Of a stretch of DNA of 64,000 bases, positions 44,001-47,000 are shown in pieces. A program made the translations under genes and the position numbers. This DNA is from Amphiura filiformis (lineage: Eukaryota; Echinodermata; Ophiuroidea; Amphilepidida; Amphiuridae), in the NCBI RefSeq assembly GCF_039555335.1, contig NC_092636.1, positions 60,391,991 to 60,455,990 of the forward strand, in the 5' to 3' direction. Within the stretch, counting starts at the first letter, position 1; each line of letters starts with the position of its first letter. The notes under the pieces were generated by a model that was given only the letters and a program-made list of their open reading frames with translations, had not been told where the DNA came from and searched no databases.

Positions 44001-47000
44001 CAACGTCTTGTTGAGAAACAAAGGGTAAGTTTCTTTGTAATTTAAAATGAGCTCTATAATGTGACCCAATCCATTGTTTACAGACAGAGGTGCATAGAAT
44101 CACAGTTCTTTCCACAGGTATTGTCCTGTATCCGCAATTGCAGTAAAAGCCTAACTTTTTTTTCAATTTATTATTTAAAAGTGGTGGTCCAATGTTTTCT
44201 ATCTTACATTGAGGCCTACCATTAAAACTATCTGTTTCCAAATTTTGAATTATGTAATAATACCCCATAGAACAGAATCTACTTTGGTTGTTGTTACCAC
44301 TTATTTGTTAACACTATCTTAATGAAACCTATCTTGGGCTTTTGAATTTTACCTGGACAGTGAATAAAATAGGAGCTTTCACCTGATACCAAAATCACTG
44401 TTTTGATGAGAAAAATTGGGGATGTGGTTTAGGATAGGTGTCTTACATCTTTAAGTAACATGAATTTCATGAAAAATAAAAATAACATCTTGCAGGAACC
44501 ATAATACCAAATTTTAGGTTTCTGCAATCTGTATATATATATAATGCAAAATAGACTTAACATAATCATATGTCAACTTGTTCTCTAACTTGAGTTTTTA
44601 ATAACATTTCCATTATACTAGATGCATCATATGAACAAAGCCAGAGAGGTTGGATGGAAGAACACACTACTTGGTTCAGATGAAGCTAATGAGGTCAGTG
44701 TTTACATGCACCCATCGGGGGGAGGGGTTGTTTGTATGGGGGTGTCATTGTACTAGATGCATCATATGAACAAAGCCAGATAAGCTGGATGGAAGAACAC
44801 ACTATTTGGTTCAGATGAAGCTAATGAGGTCAGTGTTTACATGCACCCATCGGGGGGAGGGAGGGGTTGTTTGTATGGGGGGTGTCATTGTACTAGATGC
44901 CTCATATGAACAAAGCCAGATAAGCTGGATGGAAGAACACACTATTTGGTTCAGATGAAGCTAATGAGGTCAGTGTTTACATGCACCCATCGGGGGGAGG
45001 GGTTGTTTGTATGGGGGGTGTCATTGTACTAGATGCATCATATGAACAAAGCCAGATAAGCTGGATGGAAGAACACACTATTTGGTTCAGATGAAGCTAA
45101 TGAGGTCAGTGTTTACATGCACCCATCGGGGGGAGAGGGAGGGGTGGGTGTATGGGGGTGTCATTGTACTAGATGCATCATATGAACAAAGCCAGAGAAG
45201 CTGAATGGAAGAACACACTACTTGGTTCAGATGAAGCTAATGAGGTCAGTGTTTACATGCACCCATCGGGGGGGGGGGAGGGGTTGTTTGTATGGGGGGT
45301 GTCATTGTACTAGATGCATCATATGAACAAAGCCAGAGAAGCTGGATGGAAGAACACACTACTTGGTTCAGATGAAGCTAATGAGGTCAGTGTTTACATG
45401 CACCCATCGGGGGAGGGGGAGGGGTGTTTGTATGGGGGGTGTCATTGTACTAGATGCATCATATGAACAAAGCCAGATAAGCTGGATGGAAGAACACACT
45501 ACTTGGTTCAGATGAAGCTAATGAGGTCAGTGTTTACATGCACCCATCGGGGGGAGGGGGACGGGTGGATGTATGGGGGGTGTCATTATACTAGATACAT
45601 CATATGAATAAAGCCAGAGAGGCTGGATGGAAGAACACACTACTTGGTTCAGATGAAGCTAATGAGGTCAGTTTTTACATGGGGGATTCATGCTCCCCCA
45701 GTCGGAAGTGAACATTTTGAAGAAAAAATGTCTTCTGCCACTCAATCAGGCTTGGTGCCTCCCCCATTTGAATGACCCACGCTACACCACTGATGTTTAA
45801 TTGGCTTGAAAAGAAGTTGTATCATTTAATTGAGACGTTCACTCTGTGGTATATTTACAATTTGGTTGATGAACCATAAGAATGTCTGTCCCTGTGTGAT
45901 TGCCAAGACTTGTCTTTACATATGTATTTTGTAGGTATTCTAAAATGGTAACATGTTGTAACTATAAAACAATACAAGGAGGCATTTATATGATGTGCCC
46001 TATAATATAAGGTATTCTATTCTCAATACATTGTGTGTGTTTGTTTCAGAATGACAAAGCCAGTGATGAACCTCCTAAGAAAGAAGCAAGGATGGAAGCT
46101 CAAGATGTAATGTATAAAGAATAAGTTTGTTTTCTGTACACTGACTGATCCTGTAAAAACACTGCTGACCTCATTTTTTAGGAAGGAAAAAAAAACTGTT
46201 TCTTCCACCCAACTGTAATTCTTCAAACCCAATAGAAAAAGTGTGTTTTGTTCAATTCAATTTTCAGTATTCCTATTTTGTGTAATTTGGCCATTTATCC
46301 AGAACACCCAACTGTGTTACCATAATATGTTCCTCATTAGATTTAGATGCTGCAAACTTTCTTGATAACTCAGTGGTACAAAAAATGTTGGTACAGAATC
46401 CCCGAGGTTCCTGGTTTAATACCTGGTCCCTTGGCCAACTTGAAGGAAAGAATAATGCATGATACAAAGTTTCAAATGAGCTCAGATTTCATTTGGTTTG
46501 TGGTGCTTTCTATTCATCCCAAACAGGGTGCCAAGCCATTGCGTGAGAGAGGCAACTATGAGCAGTATAATAATTACCTAGACAAACTCCAAGCCAACCA
46601 GAAACAAGCTAAACCTGGGCCTGGTGGCCATATTGCATTCCGTAAAGATGCTGAGGACGCAGCCATTAGGCAGAGAATAGCAGAAAGACCTGTGTCGGCA
46701 AGTGCTGCTGAAGCTGCAAAACGAGGAGAAGATGGCAGGTAAATGAATTGGGTCTGGGTACCACAAAATATTGCACTTGTGTGTTTTTGCCCCTGACTTG
46801 TTAATAGTGATTTTCTTTACACTACATAGTGAAATTTGAGTAATTTTTCATTAATTTAATTTTTATTTTGTAAAGTATGATACTGTGTTATTTCTATCTT
46901 TATTTACACTGTGTAGAGATGCATTTGGGTCCTGAGGATTGGGCTCAAGTAAAATGCTCAAGCCAGGCTATAAAGCCTATAGTGAGCATGCTGACCAGTA

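Follow-up and report, generated by a model that had tools for sequence, protein, structure and literature searches.

An eightfold tandem array of a complete NEK1 exon in the ophiuroid Amphiura filiformis, probably a G-rich minisatellite that captured the exon

Results

The NEK1 gene and its surroundings

The window analysed here is a stretch of 64,000 nucleotides of the Amphiura filiformis genome (assembly GCF_039555335.1, contig NC_092636.1, positions 60,391,991 to 60,455,990 of the forward strand), and all positions are counted from its first letter. It carries NEK1, a cilium and DNA-damage kinase gene, of which 22 coding exons are read on the plus strand from 22952 to 56332. When the first copy of the exon array described below is used, these exons give a stop-free spliced frame of 653 amino acids. 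A 354-amino-acid segment of the translated spliced frame matches PDB 4apc, an entry named NEK1, with an E value of 1.3e-124, and no other distinct PDB sequence reaches E 1e-60 or below; the kinase part matches Pfam Pkinase (7.7e-55). A NEK1-type kinase domain is thus found in a continuous spliced frame. The array occupies the place of the 15th coding exon, provided that a 36-nt exon at 25212–25247 is counted, and this exon is of phase 0-0, as exon 14 ends and exon 16 begins in phase 0. Given the 4apc match and this exon count, the assignment to NEK1 exon 15 with phase 0-0, made in an earlier sequence-only reading of the same DNA, holds. The array exon has a core, NKARExGW, that resembles what we take to be a conserved stretch of NEK1.

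Several other elements lie in the window. At the Rfam gathering cut-offs there are two matches, neither of them within the array. One is a full-length U11 spliceosomal RNA (RF00548, 43468–43597, plus strand, 99.5 bits, model positions 1–134, E 3e-17), on the same strand as NEK1 and in the intron between its coding exons 13 and 14. The other is a tRNA-Asp (gtc) at 42562–42633 on the minus strand, also found by ARAGORN, in the same intron. NEK1 introns further contain a pair of 49-nt inverted repeats (32447–34592, 92% complementary, 2.0 kb apart), which resemble DNA transposon termini, with a 57-nt foldback between them (33858–33980, 96% complementary), a foldback at 39542–39725 with arm pairs of 14–27 nt, two of the four perfect, and another at 42780–42956 with 67-nt arms that are 91% complementary. 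Long frames at 10463–13970 (plus strand) and 22358–19618 (minus strand), the second with an FADD motif, look like endonuclease and reverse transcriptase frames of non-LTR retrotransposons.

Structure of the array

Tandem Repeats Finder describes the array as a repeat of period 140 with 7.7 copies, 94% matches and a score of 1837 (Table 1). An exact scan for CTAG, the 72-nt exon and GTCAGT finds eight copies spanning 44622–45666, with start-to-start distances of 135, 140, 136, 140, 141, 140 and 141 nt and with the AG and GT borders intact in every copy. The array is therefore at once a head-to-tail repeat of near-identical units, as in a minisatellite, and a tandem duplication in which the entire exon and both of its borders were copied, eight times out of eight. 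Each unit opens with CATT(A/G)TACTAG, the 11 nt that lead up to the exon, and continues after the exon with GTCAGT(G/T)TTTACATG, followed in seven of the eight units by a G-rich stretch that runs to the next unit. The 52–58 nt of intron start in a unit correspond to the 63–69-nt spacer between two exon copies, minus the 11 nt that belong to the next unit. In unit 8 this part is shortened to its first 15 nt, and the native downstream intron is found after copy 8 only. The repeat is confined to this place: with up to three mismatches allowed, a 24-nt exon probe gives eight matches in the window, all in the array (0.00 expected from 100 shuffles), and a 25-nt spacer probe gives seven, again all in the array (0.00 expected by chance).

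Copies 1, 5, 6 and 8 are open, while copies 2, 3, 4 and 7 read AGA TAA, a stop at codon 9, and the two classes are interleaved. The exact scan thus bears out what had been read from the letters alone, namely eight tandem copies of one exon with AG and GT borders in units of 135–141 bp, with the same open and interrupted copies; the V/A and G/E differences reported among the open copies are also right. To these have to be added M1I in copy 8, H2P in copy 3 and L17F in copies 2–4.

Table 1. Positions of the exon array and of the neighbouring NEK1 features in the window
Feature	Start	End	Strand	Remarks
NEK1 coding exon 14	43977	44024	+	16 residues, phase 0 end; open 653-aa spliced frame
Native 3' end of intron 14	44566	44610	+	unduplicated, precedes copy 1 only; CTAAC (A at -34), TTAAT (A at -21), T-rich stretch
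Whole array	44611	45681	+	per unit, 11 nt of intron 14, 72-nt exon, 52–58 nt of G-rich intron start
Copy 1 (coding exon 15)	44622	44693	+	24 residues, open, sole native acceptor region; proposed working exon
Spacer 1	44694	44756	+	63 nt, G-rich; in-frame read-through stops at TAG of next acceptor
Copy 2	44757	44828	+	TAA at codon 9, L17F
Copy 3	44897	44968	+	TAA at codon 9, H2P, L17F
Copy 4	45033	45104	+	TAA at codon 9, L17F
Copy 5	45173	45244	+	open, GAA at codon 9, G11E
Copy 6	45314	45385	+	open, GAA at codon 9
Copy 7	45454	45525	+	TAA at codon 9
Copy 8	45595	45666	+	open, GAG at codon 9, M1I; native downstream flank, G-rich acceptor region
G-quadruplex motif, spacer 2	44852	44882	+	first of five; overall 44852–45580
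G-quadruplex motif, spacer 4	45128	45158	+	
G-quadruplex motif, spacer 5	45268	45299	+	
G-quadruplex motif, spacer 6	45409	45439	+	
G-quadruplex motif, spacer 7	45549	45580	+	
NEK1 coding exon 16	46050	46106	+	19 residues

Splice signals of the eight copies

Weight matrices were built from 21 acceptors and 21 donors of the NEK1 gene itself and are accordingly small (20–21 sites). Neither matrix includes the 36-nt exon at 25212, whose edges were read later, and for the last partial exon (58428), which has an uncertain end, the acceptor was kept and the donor dropped. The acceptor of copy 1 scores -0.9, and those of copies 2–8 score between -7.5 and -9.9, values equalled or exceeded by 81–89% of all AGs in 23100–58000; for copy 1 this share is 37%. 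The score of copy 1 is the lowest among the 21 gene acceptors, which range up to 12.7, and by this measure copy 1 is a weak exon. Between positions -23 and -4 there is no G before copy 1, against seven or eight before copies 2–8 and zero to five in the 20 other gene acceptors. These counts and scores support the suggestion that the G-rich spacers give copies 2–8 poor acceptors. The pyrimidine fraction over the same positions is 0.45 for copies 2–8, 0.60 for copy 1 and 0.45–0.90 for the other gene acceptors, the lowest of these values, that of coding exon 22, being equal to that of copies 2–8. Splicing can be either promoted or repressed by runs of G.

A branch-point match within the AG-free zone is present for 17 of the 21 gene acceptors, including copy 1 (TTAAT at -21), and for none of copies 2–8; by the same rule, the remaining four gene acceptors also have none. 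A laxer search, from 60 to 12 nt upstream, recovers only TTTAC at -53/-54 before copies 2 and 4, in each case with another AG in between. Copies 2–8 are without a usable branch-point match and pyrimidine tract because the unit includes no more than 11 nt of the preceding intron, and for the same reason copy 1 alone has the native branch point and T-rich region of intron 14. Copy 8 is open and is followed by the native intron, but with an acceptor that scores -8.1 it is rejected as the working exon. The donors of all eight copies are identical and score 7.8, within the gene range of 1.8–13.5. Introns between adjacent copies would measure 63–69 nt, whereas none of the gene's 22 listed introns is shorter than 270 nt.

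Variation among the copies

Eight exon sites vary among the copies, with six protein-altering changes, one of which creates a stop, and two silent ones. Under a simple neutral model with double weight on transitions, 22% of changes are predicted to be silent, and the exon changes therefore look neutral, although eight sites give this comparison little power. In units 2–7, 4 of the 72 exon columns vary, against 7 of the 52 ungapped spacer columns. Since all spacer changes in these units fall within the G-rich part, the first 28 nt being identical in all seven spacers, the exon is conserved better than the G-rich part but no better than the remaining spacer sequence.

The history of the stop can be read from codon 9, which is GAG in copies 1 and 8, GAA in copies 5 and 6, TAA in copy 7, and TAA accompanied by TTT in the adjacent copies 2–4. 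This nested series rules out four independent origins: the shared TAA arose by one mutation and was passed on as units were copied. It had been described as the same stop codon in half of the copies; it is indeed present in four of the eight, and the description has to be completed by its amplification from a single mutation. The nested pattern is at odds with repeated selection for stops. As CATTATACTAG is common to the end units 1 and 8, and CATTGTACTAG is found in units 2–7, an ancestor of two units that later expanded internally would fit the nested pattern.

The G-rich spacers

A four-run G-quadruplex motif is present in five of the seven spacers (2, 4, 5, 6 and 7) and has no other plus-strand match in the window; G4Hunter maxima reach 2.0–2.5 in spacers 1–7. 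A mobile-element origin of the spacer was looked for with the flank of copy 8 and with spacers 1 and 5, which at E 0.01 match only themselves and the array. Elsewhere in the gene, G-run repeats with units of 26–31 bp (of GGGGGGCAAAGGTTTTTGGCA type) lie at 41956–42319, in the intron between coding exons 13 and 14; G-rich minisatellites therefore recur in NEK1. Several larger minisatellites, with units of 102–292 bp, lie at 26132–28997, in the intron between coding exons 2 and 3.

Pairing of the docking/selector type, one known mechanism among several that make exons mutually exclusive, was sought between spacers 1, 3, 5 and 7 and intron 14 plus the 3' part of intron 15. The duplex energies of these four spacers do not beat shuffled sequence, as 12–60% of 60 shuffles gave duplexes as good, and they lend no support to Dscam-like pairing. 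The sequence CCTCCCCC occurs once on the plus strand of the window, at 45758, and is complementary to GGGGGAGG, itself present in six of the seven spacers and once beyond the array, at 57529.

Discussion

In this work we describe an array that is probably a minisatellite in NEK1 whose unit of about 140 bp includes a complete exon, with copy 1 in use and copies 2–8 left as intronic pseudoexons. The unit begins 11 nt upstream of the exon and closes with G-rich sequence from the start of the next intron. Quadruplex-prone spacers of this kind may have driven expansion via slippage or unequal repair, G-rich, quadruplex-forming minisatellites being described elsewhere as unstable (PMC5491262, PMC3486850, PMC2673046). 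Copy 1 would be joined between exons 14 and 16 as a normal exon 15, and copies 2–8 would leave with intron 15. The latter have kept their AG and GT borders, left the branch point and T-rich region behind at copying, and would now be decaying without visible constraint. The capture of an exon by a minisatellite had been offered in the sequence-only reading as the alternative, and it is the one that the acceptor tests and the neutral-looking changes support. The option named first there, exons that can be swapped or stacked together with poison exons, is not supported, given the mere 11 nt copied upstream, the gaps of 63–69 nt and the near-neutral ratio of changes.

Partial relatives of this arrangement exist. 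In the 31-bp VNTR of CBS (c.1444_1467+7), the unit as placed by its coordinates spans the exon into the intron and repeats the border, as in the NEK1 array, and in CBS 844ins68 a duplicated intron 7/exon 8 junction provides two splice sites, one of which is strongly preferred; the CBS units, however, as this source describes them, carry part of an exon and one border, against a whole exon and both borders, eight times over, in NEK1 (PMC2630376). The VNTR of ABCA7 intron 18 is an intronic minisatellite that starts with the donor GT of exon 18 and whose length correlates with altered splicing, but its 25-bp unit, as described, is without the exon body and is present in about 12 to 427 units in people (PMC5954066). 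What sets the NEK1 array apart from the CBS and ABCA7 VNTRs is a unit with an entire exon and both borders. VNTR6-1 of TERT, an intronic repeat that adds copies of a G-quadruplex and acts on splicing, has a 38-bp unit in intron 6 and an effect reported from experiment, whereas the NEK1 array is known from its sequence (PMC11830802). Tandem exon duplications with mutually exclusive splicing also consist of copies of one exon, and in Drosophila hydra a transposon flanks seven duplicated first exons; the cases presented there have RNA support, in contrast with NEK1 copies 2–8, which are without acceptor signals, and with the stop in half of all copies (PMC9013439). Closer in outcome, duplications of exon 4 in an earthworm metallothionein (clone Lr6F14) are absent from the final transcript, in another gene and another animal; the available passages of that report do not put them in a G-rich minisatellite unit (PMC12783039). 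Among the matches listed from the open-licence literature, titles and abstract openings contain no description of the NEK1 array or of an equal case.

It is possible from the sequence that a poison copy is used occasionally and at a low level, or that copy 1 is read through into the next donor. On this rests a proposal that we consider unlikely, in which the array is mostly intronic and acts as a rheostat: TAA copies, or copy 1 with read-through, would enter a minority of transcripts and send them to nonsense-mediated decay, NEK1 output falling with copy number. The donors are all intact and equal, a TAA copy, if used, would end the frame at residue 391, and read-through of spacer 1 reaches a TAG at its 21st codon. 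There are precedents as well, since in ABCA7 one VNTR unit is retained at about 2% and skipping of exon 19 rises with VNTR length (PMC5954066), splicing is shifted by a VNTR of TERT that contains G-quadruplexes (PMC11830802), and a C. elegans minisatellite is reported as over-represented near regions of alternative splicing (PMC4039745). However, unit retention in ABCA7 is given as unchanged by VNTR size (PMC5954066), the in-frame stop of four NEK1 copies arose once and was not repeatedly selected, and the very poor acceptors of copies 2–8 make the inclusion of any stop copy doubtful. A related idea, which we regard as improbable, is that the array is a copy-number-tuned dimmer of NEK1, in which stop pseudoexons and quadruplex spacers would soak up splicing factors or enter some transcripts; if this were true, more units would mean less NEK1 in that individual.

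It is highly improbable that copies 1, 5, 6 and 8 serve as alternative exons, exchanged for one another or included together, and thereby vary a coiled-coil segment. These four copies are open, the exon is of phase 0-0 and the spliced frame stays open whichever of them is inserted, and some unannotated tandemly duplicated exons of human genes are reported with RNA support, which counts against the minisatellite interpretation (PMC9013439). A mutually exclusive cluster would nevertheless be expected to have workable splice signals at each copy and an open frame in all copies. What is found is acceptor scores of -7.5 to -9.9 and no AG-free-zone branch point for copies 2–8, copies 5, 6 and 8 being without native acceptor context, and TAA in four of the eight copies, interleaved with the open ones. 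Spacers of 63–69 nt, where no listed intron of the gene is below 270 nt, the near-neutral ratio of exon changes and the absence of docking/selector pairing in a test limited to four of the seven spacers also argue against it.

G-rich tandem repeats are hard to assemble, a point in favour of misassembly having multiplied the copies of a shorter repeat, but such units are expected to be identical and here all eight are distinct, by point changes or by G-tract length, in a nested pattern in which the two end units share letters missing from the inner six, and an artefact is very hard to credit.

In conclusion, the NEK1 array is a clean natural example in which minisatellite expansion amplified an entire exon together with both borders. 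On the minisatellite interpretation, the copies never became new exons because the duplicated unit reaches just 11 nt into the preceding intron. The array is useful as a negative control for gene annotation, as a pipeline could call eight exons here, and for models in which tandem exon duplications turn into alternative exons. If copies do enter RNA, the locus would instead be a graded, copy-number-dependent splicing system in NEK1.
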